Part shown: positions 40,198-46,154 of the stretch, piece by piece
How the letters are laid out: the number at the start of each line of letters is the position of its first letter
How positions within the stretch are numbered: the first letter of the stretch is position 1
Assembly: GCA_039030075.1 (NCBI GenBank)
Contig: JBCCEW010000004.1
Location: 213,826-277,825 of the forward strand
Length of the DNA: 64,000 nt
Source of the DNA: Myxococcota bacterium
GTDB taxonomy: Bacteria > Myxococcota_A > UBA9160 > SMWR01
Reading direction: 5' to 3'
Translations under genes and position numbers: made by a program
The notes under the pieces: generated by a model
Database searches by the model: none
What the model was told of the DNA's origin: nothing
What the model saw: only the letters and a program-made list of their open reading frames with translations

Positions 40198-40210
40198 GAT
40201 CTATTTTTTG

Positions 40211-42568
40211 ATGTCTCGATCTCTCGAGTCTCTCGGAAAGACCTGCGCTGGAAGGCGTTTTTTATGGATCTCCGTCTACCTCGTGCTCACAGCGGGGTGC
40301 TGGGGCTGCTCCGAGACGGAGGCTCCGAGACCCGCGGGGGAGTCGACCCCCAGCGCTCGCACGTCCGCCGTGGAGATCCCCGAGACCGCCGCGTGGGTCG
40401 GGAGCGCGGTCTGTGCCGAGTGCCATGGCGCCGAGGCGGAGGCCTGGCGCGGGTCGGATCACGACCGGGCCATGCAGGAGCCCGACGCCGAGAGCGTGCT
40501 GGGCGACTTCGAGGACGCACGCTTCGAAGAAGCCGGCACGACCTGGAGCTTCGTCCGCTACCAGGGCAAGTACCTGATCAAGAGCGAGGGCCGCGAGAGC
40601 GGCGAGTACGAGGTGGCGTACACCTTCGGCGCCGACCCGCTGCAGCAGTACCTGATCGCCTTCCCGGACGGACGGCTCCAGGCGCTGCACGTCGCCTGGG
40701 ACACGCGCCCTGCCGCGGCCGGCGGCCAGCGCTGGTTCTCGCTCCACGATGCACCGCCGACGGTGGGGGATCCGCTGCACTGGCAGAGCGCCGCCGGGAA
40801 CTGGAACCTTCTCTGCGGCGACTGTCACTCGACGGGCTTTCGGAAGGGCTTCGATCTCGCCGAGCGGACCTACGCCTCCCACTGGGAAGAGGTCGACGTC
40901 GGCTGCGAGGCGTGCCACGGGGCCGGCGGTGCGCACGCGCGCTGGGCCGCCGGGGGCGCGGGCCGCGGGGGGCCGCAGCTTCGCGTGGACTATCCCGCGC
41001 CAACGCGCTGGGAGCGGGCCGATGGCGCGCCGATCGCCCACGCGGCGTCGGGTGCCGTTTCGCCGGACACCGAGATCGATACCTGCGCACCGTGCCACTC
41101 GCGCCGCACGCGGCTCGTCGACGCGGCGGGGCCGGAACAGGACTTCCTCGACGGCTATCGCCCGGCGCTGCTCGAGCCTGGCCTCTACCACGATGACGGA
41201 CAGATCGCCGACGAGGTCTTCGTCTGGGGCTCCTACGTGCAGAGCAAGATGTACGCCGCCGGTGTGCGTTGCAGTGACTGCCACGACCCGCACTCGACGG
41301 GTCTGCGCGCCGAGGGCAACGCCCTGTGCGGCAACTGTCATGACCCCGCGGTCTTCGACACGCGCGACCACCACCATCACGCGGGCGACACGCCGGCGTC
41401 GCAATGCACCGCCTGTCACATGCCGAGCCGCACCTACATGCAGATCGACGCACGCGGGGACCATCGCTTCTCGATCCCGCGGCCGGAGCAGAGCGCGGCA
41501 CTCGGAACGCCGTCGGCCTGCGATGGGTGTCACGCCGACGCGGCGCCGGGCTGGGCCGCCGAACAGCTCATCGCCTGGCGCAGCGGTGGCGAGGAGCGCA
41601 CCCACTTCGGGCGCCGCCTGGCCATGCGTCACCAGGAAGGGGCCGAAGCCGCCCGCGCGCTCGAAGCCCTGATCGACGACCGCTCGGCGCCGGCGATCGC
41701 CCGCGCCGCCGCCTTCGTCGGGCTCGCGACGCCCAGCCCCGAACGTGCCCGCGCTGCCGCGGCTTCGCCGGACGCCCTGGTGCGTCTCGCGGCAGCCAGC
41801 GCCAGCGATGCCCTGCCCGCGCTGGAGCGCGCCGCCGCGCTGGCCCCGCTGCTGAGCGACCCCCGCCACGCCGTACGCATCGAAGCGGCGCGCGCGCTCA
41901 TCGATGTCCCGGCGGAGCTCCTGACCCCGGACCAGCGCGCCGCGCGACGCCGCGAGATCGAGGCGTTCCGCGCGGCCCAGGACGCCCGCGCCGACGAGCC
42001 GGGCTCGCACGTCCAGCTCGCCTCGCTGCACCTGCGCGAGAACCGGGACGGCCCCGCAGCGGAGGCCGCCTTCCGCACGGCGCTGCGCGTTGGCCCCTAC
42101 TTCTTGCCGGCTTCGCTCGGGCTCGCCGACCTGCTCGGCCAGCTCGACCGCGACGACGAAGGTCGCGACGTGTTGGAGGCGGCGCTCGAGCGCGCGCCCG
42201 AGATCCCCGACCTGCACCTCGCCCTGGGCATGCTGCACGTGCGCCAGGGCCGGCAAGGGGACGCGTTGGCGGCGTTCGAGGCCGCGCGAGAGCAGGCGCC
42301 CCAGGATCCCCGGGTCCTGTACGTGCTCGCCGTCGCACTGCATTCCCAGGACCGCTCGGATGCCGCGCTGGACCTGCTGCGCGAGGGGCTCGAGGCGCAT
42401 CCGGACAACAGCGCGCTGCTGAGCACCCTCGCGACGATGGGCCGGGATCTCGGTGCCTACGAGGACGCGCTCGCCGCGGTCGACCGGCTGATCGCACTCC
42501 ACCCCGGCAATCCCCAGCTGGAGAGCCTGCGCGCCGACATCCAGAGCCGCGCCGAGGGCGCACCCTAG
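40211..42568 (+). CDS. Octahaem cytochrome c lipoprotein with TPR C-terminus
   Basis: 785 aa. The signal has a hydrophobic stretch ending VLTAGC, a lipobox. Eight CXXCH motifs begin at about residues 68, 202, 232, 292, 354, 373, 399 and 437 (for example CAECH, CGDCH, CEACH, CSDCH). An Ala-rich helical HEAT-like segment (~480-570) and several TPR units (~600-780, DGPAAEAAFRTALRVGPYF onward) follow. This matches a group of multihaem cytochromes with TPRs of unknown function. It probably moves electrons in the periplasm or at the outer membrane. The ATG at 40211 has no strong Shine-Dalgarno. Confidence 0.87.
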   Translation: MSRSLESLGKTCAGRRFLWISVYLVLTAGCWGCSETEAPRPAGESTPSARTSAVEIPETAAWVGSAVCAECHGAEAEAWRGSDHDRAMQEPDAESVLGDFEDARFEEAGTTWSFVRYQGKYLIKSEGRESGEYEVAYTFGADPLQQYLIAFPDGRLQALHVAWDTRPAAAGGQRWFSLHDAPPTVGDPLHWQSAAGNWNLLCGDCHSTGFRKGFDLAERTYASHWEEVDVGCEACHGAGGAHARWAAGGAGRGGPQLRVDYPAPTRWERADGAPIAHAASGAVSPDTEIDTCAPCHSRRTRLVDAAGPEQDFLDGYRPALLEPGLYHDDGQIADEVFVWGSYVQSKMYAAGVRCSDCHDPHSTGLRAEGNALCGNCHDPAVFDTRDHHHHAGDTPASQCTACHMPSRTYMQIDARGDHRFSIPRPEQSAALGTPSACDGCHADAAPGWAAEQLIAWRSGGEERTHFGRRLAMRHQEGAEAARALEALIDDRSAPAIARAAAFVGLATPSPERARAAAASPDALVRLAAASASDALPALERAAALAPLLSDPRHAVRIEAARALIDVPAELLTPDQRAARRREIEAFRAAQDARADEPGSHVQLASLHLRENRDGPAAEAAFRTALRVGPYFLPASLGLADLLGQLDRDDEGRDVLEAALERAPEIPDLHLALGMLHVRQGRQGDALAAFEAAREQAPQDPRVLYVLAVALHSQDRSDAALDLLREGLEAHPDNSALLSTLATMGRDLGAYEDALAAVDRLIALHPGNPQLESLRADIQSRAEGAP

Positions 42569-43164: not shown

Positions 43165-44996
43165 GACGAGAAGCGCGTCGCCGCTGGTCGATCGGCGTCG
43201 CCCTCGCCTGCGTGTTCGCCGCGTCGGTGAGTGATGCGACGCAGCAGGTGGAGTACGTCTACATCGAAGCGGGCGAAGGCGGCTCGAGCGGGGGCCACGT
43301 CGCGCTGCGGCTCGGCGATCTCGCGTACCACTACCAGCGCGAAGCCGACGGCGCCGTCGAACTGCGTCGGGAGGGCTGGCGCGCCTTCGTGTTCCGCTAT
43401 CGGGTGAGTGAGAACCGCAACCTCCAGATCACCCAGATCGCCACCACGGCGCCTCGGCGGACCCAGCTACAGGAACGCCTCGACACCCAGTTCCTGCGCG
43501 AACGCGCCCAGCGGGATCGCCTCCATGCACTGCGTCGCGACGTCGCGCTGCTCGCCGCCTTGAACGCGCCCGAGGGCCGGGTGCCGATCGCCGGCGCCGG
43601 CTTCTTCGACCTCGAAGCGCTCGCGACCACCGATGCCGAGCGTGCCGGAGAACGCGCGCTGCGACGCCTGCGCGAGCGCCTGCTCGGCCGCGGCGCGGGA
43701 CCCAGCCTGGCGTTCCGGCGGCGCGTCGCCGAGAGCGCGATCGCACACTTGCGGCCCGAGACGCGCGCGCCGCGTGCGAGCGAGGCCCTCGACTACGGAT
43801 TCTCGCGCCGCTTTGCGGACGCCTACGCGGCGTGGTTGGCCCTGCGCGTGCTCGAGGAAGCGCCCCCGCTGCGGCAGGCGGCTCTACGGCGCGTGGGCGC
43901 CGAAGCCCTGCCCCTGCGTCCCCCCGAGCGGCTCGCCCTGGCCCGACAGGCACGACGCATCGAAGCGTCGCTGATCGCCCTGATCGACTCCGCCCGTCCC
44001 GACTGGGGGCGCGCGTTCCTGCTCGGCATGGCGCGCCTCGCGGCGATCGAGGGATCGCTCGCGACGCACCAGTTGCAACTGCTCGACGCCTACCCCGAAG
44101 AGGTCCTGGAGCTGGCCCCCGCGGCGTGGGCGTCGCTCGACGTGACTCTCGACCTGCAGGAGGAGTGGCGGCGCAGCCAGTGGTTGCGTGCGCGCCAGGC
44201 ACTGATCGACGCTCCCGACGACGAGACGCGCCTCGGCGACCTCGAGTTGGCCCAGAGCGACTACGCCGAGTTGATCGACGCGCGTACCCGGCATCGGCCG
44301 CTGCGGATTCCGCTGCGCAACGGTCTGCCCGAAGCGTCGCGTTTCATCGCGCCCACCCCTCGGCCGCGCTTCGCCCGAGACGAGGGCGCTCGCCTGCTGG
44401 CGCTGGCGCGCGTGCGACTCGAGGAGGCCGAGGCGAGCCACGACGCACAGGCGGCCTACGACCTCGTCTCGCGCAACTGCGTGACCGAGCTCTTCGCGCA
44501 CCTCGACGCCGCACTCGGCGACGTTGTTCCGAGTGAAGCGGGCGACGGAGCGGGCGGGGCGCCGGGCTTCGTCCCCGTGCTGTCGGCCCAGGCCGTCGCC
44601 GAACGCTGGGGCCGGGGCGACTCGCGCACCCTGCTCTCCCACCGACGCACGCTGGTCGGCGAGAGCTGGTGGTCGGCCCTGCGTGAATCGAACACCCTGA
44701 CCGCGACGCGCTACGAGAGCCCGCTCGAGGACTCGCTCTTCCTGTTCTTCACCGACAACGCCGCGCCGGTGCGCCCCCTGCTCGGCGCCGCGAACCTGGC
44801 GACCGGCGTGGTCGGAGGCGCCCTGGGTCTGTTCACTCTGCCCTGGGATCAAGGGGCGTTGTTCTCGCGTTCGGTGCGCGGCAGCGTCGCGAGCGTTCCC
44901 GAGCTCTTCTTCGTCAACATCCGCAAGGGGACGTATCCCCTGCTGCCGCCGTCTTCGGCGGACGCCGACGTCGCCGCCACTCCCGAACCCCAATGA
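43155..44996 (+). CDS. Secreted DUF4105-like permuted-papain-fold protein
   Basis: 613 aa from a GTG start overlapping the lipoprotein gene. The signal peptide covers about residues 1-28. The motif GGSSGGHVALRLGDLAYHY (H48) near the N-terminus and SRNCVTELFAHLD (C442) far downstream give the His-then-Cys order of circularly permuted papain-like domains. This pattern resembles DUF4105, the fold of the lipoprotein N-acyltransferase Lnb, and a pairing with a small lipoprotein would fit. Similarity is too weak to claim that activity. A hydrophobic segment follows near residue 540. The 3' end overlaps the convergent gene by 83 bp. Confidence 0.6.
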   Translation: MALRREARRRWSIGVALACVFAASVSDATQQVEYVYIEAGEGGSSGGHVALRLGDLAYHYQREADGAVELRREGWRAFVFRYRVSENRNLQITQIATTAPRRTQLQERLDTQFLRERAQRDRLHALRRDVALLAALNAPEGRVPIAGAGFFDLEALATTDAERAGERALRRLRERLLGRGAGPSLAFRRRVAESAIAHLRPETRAPRASEALDYGFSRRFADAYAAWLALRVLEEAPPLRQAALRRVGAEALPLRPPERLALARQARRIEASLIALIDSARPDWGRAFLLGMARLAAIEGSLATHQLQLLDAYPEEVLELAPAAWASLDVTLDLQEEWRRSQWLRARQALIDAPDDETRLGDLELAQSDYAELIDARTRHRPLRIPLRNGLPEASRFIAPTPRPRFARDEGARLLALARVRLEEAEASHDAQAAYDLVSRNCVTELFAHLDAALGDVVPSEAGDGAGGAPGFVPVLSAQAVAERWGRGDSRTLLSHRRTLVGESWWSALRESNTLTATRYESPLEDSLFLFFTDNAAPVRPLLGAANLATGVVGGALGLFTLPWDQGALFSRSVRGSVASVPELFFVNIRKGTYPLLPPSSADADVAATPEPQ

Positions 44997-45510
44997 GCCC
45001 GGCGACCGCGAGTGTTCCCGCGGTCAACGTGGCAGGGCTCTCGAGGCGCGCCAGGGGCGCCGCCACCGCCGCGCCGAAGAGTGCGGCGACGAGCATCGGC
45101 AGCCCACAGAGCACGGCGAAGCTCACCCCGAACCCCATGACGCCGGCGATGCCTCCCGCGCGCAACCACGCCCGCGGGCCAATGCTGGCGGGCGGCGTGA
45201 TCCCTGCCAGGACCTCGACGACGGGATCGTCGCCCCGCACCTCGAGGATCGCGTCGCCGGCCGCGTTGCGACCCAGCTCGAAGCGCACGTCGGCGCAGCA
45301 GGCGCGCTCCTTCTCGATCCAACGGCGCAGGGTCGCCTCGGCGGCGGCACTGCCATCGCACTCCCAGAGGACCCCGTCGGGCAGGCGCACCACGCGACGG
45401 ACGAGCGGCGCCACCTCGGCCGCGATCCAGGCGCGGCGCTCGGCAAGCTCCGGTGAGGAGAGAGTGCAACTGCTGCCCGCGGGCAGCGACGCTCCGAGCT
45501 CGGTTCCCAT
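44914..45510 (-). CDS. Cys-rich membrane protein under MerR-type promoter
   Basis: 198 aa. The ATG at 45510 has AGGAGG 8 nt upstream. The soluble N-terminal part carries a Cys pair, C71-C72, in EKERACCADVRFEL. Two hydrophobic helices follow (~117-140 and ~160-177), with a basic linker and the C-terminal CGC. The soluble part resembles small proteins often located in MerR-regulated metal-resistance loci. The promoter is of MerR type. A metal (mercury-like) binding or transport role is inferred. Its end overlaps the DUF4105-like gene tail to tail by 83 bp. Confidence 0.7.
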   Translation of the reverse strand: MGTELGASLPAGSSCTLSSPELAERRAWIAAEVAPLVRRVVRLPDGVLWECDGSAAAEATLRRWIEKERACCADVRFELGRNAAGDAILEVRGDDPVVEVLAGITPPASIGPRAWLRAGGIAGVMGFGVSFAVLCGLPMLVAALFGAAVAAPLARLESPATLTAGTLAVAGLIGVREWRRRRRPPKTAAAGDTSPCGC

Positions 45511-45536
45511 GACGCGTTCCTCCTGAGGACAGGGAA

Positions 45537-45567
45537 AGATTACTTGTTCAAGTACGCTTGAAGTCAA
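45537..45567 (-). promoter_or_regulatory. MerR-family promoter with 19-bp spacer
   Basis: On the minus strand the -35 TTGACT (45562-45567) and -10 TAATCT (45537-45542) are separated by exactly 19 bp (45543-45561). Between them lies the perfect inverted repeat TTCAAG-CGTA-CTTGAA (45547-45562). A 19-bp spacer with a dyad between the hexamers is the hallmark of MerR/SoxR/CueR-type activated promoters. Transcription would start about 20 nt before the 45510 ATG. No merR-like gene is in the window. Confidence 0.7.
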
Positions 45568-45647: not shown

Positions 45648-46154
45648 ATGACCGTCGAAGTGAACGGCATCGCGCACATCCAACTCACCACGAACGATCC
45701 GGATCGCTCCCTGCCCTTCTGGGAAGCGTTCTGTCACTTCCTCGAGATGAAGACGCTGATCCGCAACGAGGAGATCGTCTACTGCATCGGGAGTCGCACG
45801 GGCATCCTGGTGCGCGCCGCACCGGCGGTGAAGCGCGACGGCCACTTCGACCAGGAGCGCGTGGGGCTCCACCACTTCTGCTTTCGCGCCCGCGCGCACG
45901 ACGACATCGACAAGATCCATGCCTTCGTGCGCGAGTACCCCGAGGCGACGATCGTCCACCCGCCCGAGGACGGTTCCCAGTTCGCGCCGGGCTACTACTC
46001 GCTGCTTTTCGAAGACCCGGACGGGATCCGCGTGGAAGTGAACCACGTGCCCGGCAAGGGCCACTTCGGAAAGGAAGGACGCCTCGGCGAAGGCGGACCC
46101 GGCCCGGCGGGCCGCTACGGCGAAGACGGGCTGCAGGACGAAGACGCCTCCTGA
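45648..46154 (+). CDS. VOC-superfamily (glyoxalase/dioxygenase fold) protein
   Basis: 168 aa. The first His-containing strand is IAHIQLTTNDPDRSLPFWEAF and the second is RVGLHHFCFRARAHDDID. LLFEDPDGIRVEVNHVPG supplies the closing Glu of a VOC metal triad (H, H, E). The last 35 residues are Gly-rich and probably disordered. The ATG at 45648 follows GCGAGG. It lies between the MerR-type promoter (divergent) and a convergent antiporter. The substrate is unknown; the fold covers glyoxalase, extradiol dioxygenase and antibiotic-resistance functions. Confidence 0.85.
   Translation: MTVEVNGIAHIQLTTNDPDRSLPFWEAFCHFLEMKTLIRNEEIVYCIGSRTGILVRAAPAVKRDGHFDQERVGLHHFCFRARAHDDIDKIHAFVREYPEATIVHPPEDGSQFAPGYYSLLFEDPDGIRVEVNHVPGKGHFGKEGRLGEGGPGPAGRYGEDGLQDEDAS

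Follow-up and report, generated by a model that had tools for sequence, protein, structure and literature searches.

A MerR/SoxR-type promoter before a cysteine-rich membrane protein, and its likely SoxR-related regulator encoded elsewhere in the genome

The stretch of DNA analysed, here called the window, comprises 64,000 nt. P0001, a single-copy gene on its minus strand (44914..45510), was delimited from the sequence, its relatives and profile searches, and encodes a cysteine-rich membrane protein of 198 aa. The ATG (45510-45508, minus) is preceded at 8 nt by a Shine-Dalgarno sequence, AGGAGG (45519..45524, minus). Upstream of this, the minus strand reads 5'-TTGACT-TCAAGCGTACTTGAACAAG-TAATCT-3' at 45567..45537, with TTGACT as the -35 box (45567-45562), TAATCT as the -10 box (45542-45537) and a spacer of exactly 19 bp by direct reading. 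A perfect operator dyad, TTCAAG-CGTA-CTTGAA (45547..45562, unstranded), lies inside the spacer region. The divergent gene at 45648..46154 on the plus strand belongs to the glyoxalase/dioxygenase superfamily (Pfam PF00903, E=9e-9) and was considered a neighbour outside the system. Its start was also observed upstream of the P0001 copy in the genus-mate G001 (L028), so the genus keeps this synteny even though its merR lies elsewhere. Elsewhere in the window, a large ORF (40208-42568) with several CxxCH heme motifs and tetratricopeptide-like repeats was judged by eye to be a likely multihaem cytochrome.

The segment 45537..45567 (minus) was classed as a MerR/SoxR-type promoter from direct reading, from its uniqueness in the genome and from its conservation upstream of homologues; it has the dyad between -35 and -10 and a spacer within the 19-20 bp typical of MerR-family promoters. 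According to PMC11049809, activation by this family depends on the abnormal 19-bp spacer length, as at the mer promoter. The pattern has a single match in the window, against none in 100 shuffled versions, and the exact match is unique in the 5.76-Mb genome, where two sites were found at up to three mismatches and none with a reversed-pattern control. Twenty homologous loci were collected, two of which end at a contig edge; 17 of the 18 testable loci are preceded by a TTGAC-N20-TA promoter with the 19-bp spacer and the same dyad. A degenerate version of the site matched 13 of 60 related genomes, with one site each and no match for the reversed pattern, and every one of these sites adjoins a P0001 relative. 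The consensus from 22 sites was TTGACTTgAAGTGCACTTgAAg..gTA..cT. The original prediction had placed TTGACT and TAATCT 19 bp apart around a perfect TTCAAG/CTTGAA dyad and had recognized in them a MerR-family promoter; direct reading, the shuffles and the conservation in relatives bear out both statements.

The dyad was considered as a mark specific to the P0001 system, and this was rejected. In a scan of named genomes, the same dyad was also used, among the matches listed, by true SoxRs (CIGCGC) and by a third MerR group (CPxxSHxxCP). Being common to several MerR subfamilies, the dyad points to a SoxR-type system and does not name the inducer. The third group was noted separately: in Pseudomonadota, among the matches listed, regulators with a C-terminal CPAxSHxxCP have a 19-bp promoter of the form TTGACTTSAAGT-NN-ACTTSAA beside their own gene (L146, L151, L152, L172-L174 and others).

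The genome contains 12 MerR-domain genes, all outside the window, in line with the earlier statement that no merR is nearby. One of them, on contig C13 (C13:45286-44903 in the source genome G000), was assigned from sequence and homology and encodes a protein of 128 aa with CECPTLEDC near its C-terminal end. It is a member of the MerR superfamily, exceeding the Pfam cut-offs for PF13411 (58.4 bits), PF09278 (48.8 bits) and PF00376 (40.4 bits), which cover the MerR HTH and the MerR-DNA-bind domain. Its nearest homologues, at 53-61% identity, adjoin P0001 relatives, mostly in divergent orientation with the promoter between the two genes; 11 related genomes show this adjacency, as do further ones elsewhere in the phylum. 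Of the 12 MerR-domain genes, the C13 gene is the sole clear orthologue of these linked regulators, and the others match it weakly over the HTH. The regulator was present in 16 and the P0001 family in 17 of the 60 related genomes, with both in 15, neither in 42, the gene alone in two and the regulator alone in one (Fisher p=4e-11; such p-values overstate the evidence because the compared genomes are related). A member of the CxCx5C regulator group was observed in G032 (L128), a genome with no detected P0001 relative. Pairwise distances of regulator and N-domain (the cytosolic domain of P0001, below) were correlated over 18 genomes (r=0.49, permutation p=2e-4).

Regulator and gene are linked in 11 genomes and unlinked in four, namely G000, G001, G021 and G041. 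The unlinked regulator gene of G041 (L130) is itself preceded, at a distance of 38 bp, by a site of the P0001 type. The original prediction proposed a regulator encoded elsewhere, to be sought as a genomic merR gene with the same site in its own promoter. The search yielded the C13 gene, which lies on another contig than P0001 and is an orthologue of the regulators linked to P0001 relatives; its own promoter lacks the site. A genome devoid of any MerR homologue able to use the dyad, which was to have spoken against the prediction, is thus not what was found, and the C13 gene is likely, from these sequence comparisons, to be the regulator of the 45537-45567 site. Control by a different regulator, or a dyad that is simply part of a constitutive promoter, would fit the unlinked position here and the use of the same dyad by several MerR subfamilies, but was judged very improbable in view of the sole clear orthologue among the 12 genes and the joint tracking of regulator and dyad over the 60 genomes.

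Evidence for action in trans also came from a second gene. In five relatives, the promoter is followed first by the gene of a small membrane protein and then by the P0001 homologue. The same gene is single-copy here (C3:172640-172855) and shares the operon in all five other genomes that have it. The second-best genomic site, TTGACCTCGAGTGCGCTCGAAGCCCCATCTT, lies about 85 bp before this gene on C3. Its -10 box is poor, and its dyad carries symmetric changes (TCGAG...CTCGA); CTCGA half-sites occur in relatives as well. Because this site precedes a gene that shares the P0001 operon in relatives, the regulon appears to be split over three loci, and the coincidence gives strong independent support for a site working in trans. 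In G021, N-domain and hairpin are encoded apart, by two genes at different loci, and the same promoter precedes each of them.

The class of the regulator was examined with curated profiles and a tree. The best profile was SoxR (TIGR01950) at 75.5 bits, below the curated cut-off of 116.9 bits, and none of the curated equivalog cut-offs for Hg(II)-MerR, CueR, ZntR or CadR/PbrR was reached (best 70.8 against 147.4 bits for CueR, others lower). In the tree the regulator group was sister to the true SoxRs; the true SoxR clade was fully supported, and the sister relation, from a short alignment, had moderate support. All 20 members of the group in this order keep CxCx5C and lack the first cysteine of the SoxR motif CX2CXCX5C, so that three of the four cluster cysteines of the C-x2-C-x-C-x5-C [2Fe-2S] motif are present. 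The SoxR [2Fe-2S] cluster requires four cysteines, and divalent-metal sensors have an additional Cys where the dimer helix begins, a position at which the C13 regulator has none. On sequence grounds, dyad and regulator are thus of SoxR type rather than Hg-MerR type, a refinement of the original prediction, which as a whole is partly supported.

This kinship makes a redox or electrophile inducer a real rival, and the SoxR profile together with the missing dimer-helix Cys makes such a signal possible. The signal for the CxCx5C variant would then be a redox-cycling compound, NO or an electrophile that reacts with thiols, and P0001, as a membrane thiol protein, would repair or buffer oxidized thiols. 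The dyad and recognition region are of SoxR type, the best profile and sister clade are those of SoxR, and true SoxRs use the same site among the matches listed; against this, the score is below the SoxR cut-off, the first cysteine of a cluster that needs four is absent throughout the order's group, and the genes that accompany the N-domain are merB, ars and metal ATPase genes, with no redox genes. We regard a redox role as unlikely.

The product of P0001 has two parts. No Pfam or NCBIfam family was matched over cut-off, and the matches below it (holin family and DUF7092 in Pfam, MYXO-CTERM in NCBIfam) were disregarded; searches of genome-contig, plasmid and PDB sequence collections with the P0001 sequence returned no relatives. 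Relatives were present in 17 of the 60 related genomes. C15, L17, R25, G46, E68, C71, C72 and P138 are invariant across the alignments of the family and C135 is nearly so. The AlphaFold2 model had a mean pLDDT of 77, rising to about 90 and above in residues 21-90; Foldseek/VIA searches with it gave nothing specific, as the best Z (about 6.6, to ArgR C-domains among others) was tied with unrelated folds. A description of this regulator-P0001 system was not found in the literature. The predicted CC and CGC motifs are present, as C71-C72 and at the C-terminus, and the product is, as had been proposed, an uncharacterized Cys-rich membrane protein.

Residues 112-198 (44917..45177, minus) form a C-terminal two-helix hairpin, with helices predicted by AlphaFold2 at 121-153 and 159-182, C135-x-x-P138 in TM1, an Arg-rich tail and the terminal CGC. 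The hairpin was compared with MerF by hhalign with controls. The profiles aligned with E=2e-5 and Prob 77%, the Cys and the Pro each falling on its counterpart; a column-shuffled MerF gave at most half the score, and single MerFs scored 17.7-30.2, where the highest of 98 control membrane segments reached 17.5. P0001 shows the two-helix hairpin with Cys(Cys)-x-x-Pro in TM1 and has one TM1 Cys rather than two, CC being present in several relatives. The TM1 cysteine pairs of MerT and MerE are needed for mercury transport (PMC5715351). P0001 did not match Pfam MerF, MerT or MerC, and its best relative (L121) was sub-threshold for MerF/MerC; we consider the similarity to MerF moderate, as judged from profiles. 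Distant relatives in the phylum have the parts in both orders, with the N-domain followed by a CCATP hairpin in L121 and a GCCAAP hairpin followed by the N-domain in L118.

The N-domain, predicted to be cytosolic, covers approximately residues 12-103 (45201..45477, minus) and was defined from alignments, the AlphaFold2 model and HMM links. Its predicted fold is helix-strand-strand-helix-strand-strand, and its invariant residues are C15, L17, E68, C71 and C72. HMM links extend to archaeal, Bacteroidota, Chloroflexota and Rhodococcus proteins. Relatives encoded on annotated plasmids, confirmed with an N-domain-only HMM against reversed decoys, have the same five residues in common. In haloarchaea, N-domain genes overlap or adjoin merB, metal P-type ATPase or bile acid:sodium symporter genes, and in Adhaeribacter the N-domain gene follows arsB, together with YnfA, in two arsR-arsN2-arsM-arsB operons. 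A Chloroflexi MAG, among the matches listed, has the order MerR(CECQDLEAC)-site-N-domain-(YnfA-like), the YnfA call here and for L147 being made by eye.

Several further arrangements were observed. In Rhodococcus (L133:5518-6297, L134:5506-6297) the N-domain is fused to the MerR C-terminus after CGPDCGC, with a bile acid:sodium symporter gene adjacent. An N-domain gene followed by that of a YnfA-family membrane protein recurs in Bacteroidota and Chloroflexota (L135:6031-6672, L136:5977-6618, L147:2096-2989). Among the 60 related genomes MerB was commoner in those with the P0001 family (8/17 against 3/43, p=9e-4, inflated by kinship), and was not adjacent to it. MerB homologues in which one in-frame TGA takes the place of the second conserved cysteine (..ASPTUSQMHFF..), probable selenocysteine MerBs, were seen at L272-L279, in the related genomes G013, G051, G009, G005, G041, G024, G053 and G038; a MerB-like selenoprotein has already been listed (PMC9312934).

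From this distribution the N-domain, with C15, R25, E68 and C71-C72, may found an undescribed soft-metal(loid)-binding family in Bacteria and Archaea with mixed partners, a three-cysteine SoxR relative having become its dedicated activator in this order; we hold the chances of this to be about even. The partners would be MerF-like hairpins and MerR, as a possible sensor part, by fusion, and arsenite-exporter, YnfA and MerB genes by adjacency.

We favour as probable a dedicated regulon for sensing and handling a soft metal of the Hg or As type, composed of the SoxR-related activator, its site and P0001. The C13 regulator, with its three C-terminal cysteines (CECPTLEDC), would bind the dyad in the over-long 19-bp spacer and, with inducer bound, remodel the DNA and so make the -35 and -10 boxes usable by RNA polymerase. 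P0001 would thereby be switched on, as would the unlinked small membrane protein gene on contig C3. Promoter conservation, the likely identity of the regulator, the split regulon and the two-part protein have sequence evidence behind them. In the cytosolic domain of P0001, C15 and C71-C72 may serve to bind a soft, thiophilic metal species, and the metal may be passed along the hairpin (TM1 Cys-x-x-Pro, C-terminal CGC), as MerF and MerT do for Hg(II). Here we infer the class of inducer (a soft metal, a metalloid or an organo-derivative), the binding of metal, and transport with its direction; the soft-metal reading draws on gene company and cysteine layout.

Gene company supports both mercury and arsenic. 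A narrower form of the soft-metal reading, compatible with it, gives arsenic or antimony (including organoarsenicals) precedence over mercury and makes the N-domain a trivalent-arsenic binder for various exporters. It would suit the position after arsB in the two Adhaeribacter ars operons, the Rhodococcus N-domain-MerR fusion beside a bile acid:sodium symporter gene and the good binding of As(III) by three-cysteine sites; the haloarchaeal copies adjoining merB, the MerF-like hairpin and the co-occurrence of MerB with the family weigh against it, and we consider this narrowing rather doubtful. A canonical mer operon was rejected, since this genome had no match to MerB and none to MerA over the curated cut-off. 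Hg(II) taken up would thus lack a known sink, which makes uptake for reduction unlikely; export or sequestration of the metal by P0001 is more plausible on this gene content.

Two things come out of the analysis: a likely regulator with its target, and a cysteine domain that lacks annotation and recurs in the neighbourhood of mercury and arsenic genes. Proteins of this kind are at present labelled hypothetical and could be turned into metal-handling parts open to test. The system resembles the mer operon (MerR with MerF, MerT or MerC) in its MerR-family activator, 19-bp spacer and small TM protein with TM1 Cys-x-x-Pro and C-terminal cysteines, and differs in lacking merA/merP linkage, in its extra undescribed domain, its SoxR-like regulator and its scores below the Pfam MerF/MerC thresholds. 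With Slr0701/MerA of Synechocystis it shares a MerR-family regulator encoded away from its target, whereas the target there is mercuric reductase and the regulator was shown to bind and respond to Hg (PMC6741143). The C13 regulator is like SoxR (TIGR01950) in its HTH, its dyad with 19-bp spacer, its place in a sister clade and the CxCx5C part of the cluster motif, and differs in having three of the four cluster cysteines, a sub-cut-off score and a different, dedicated target; it would be a natural SoxR-type case minus one cluster cysteine, perhaps changed in what it senses.
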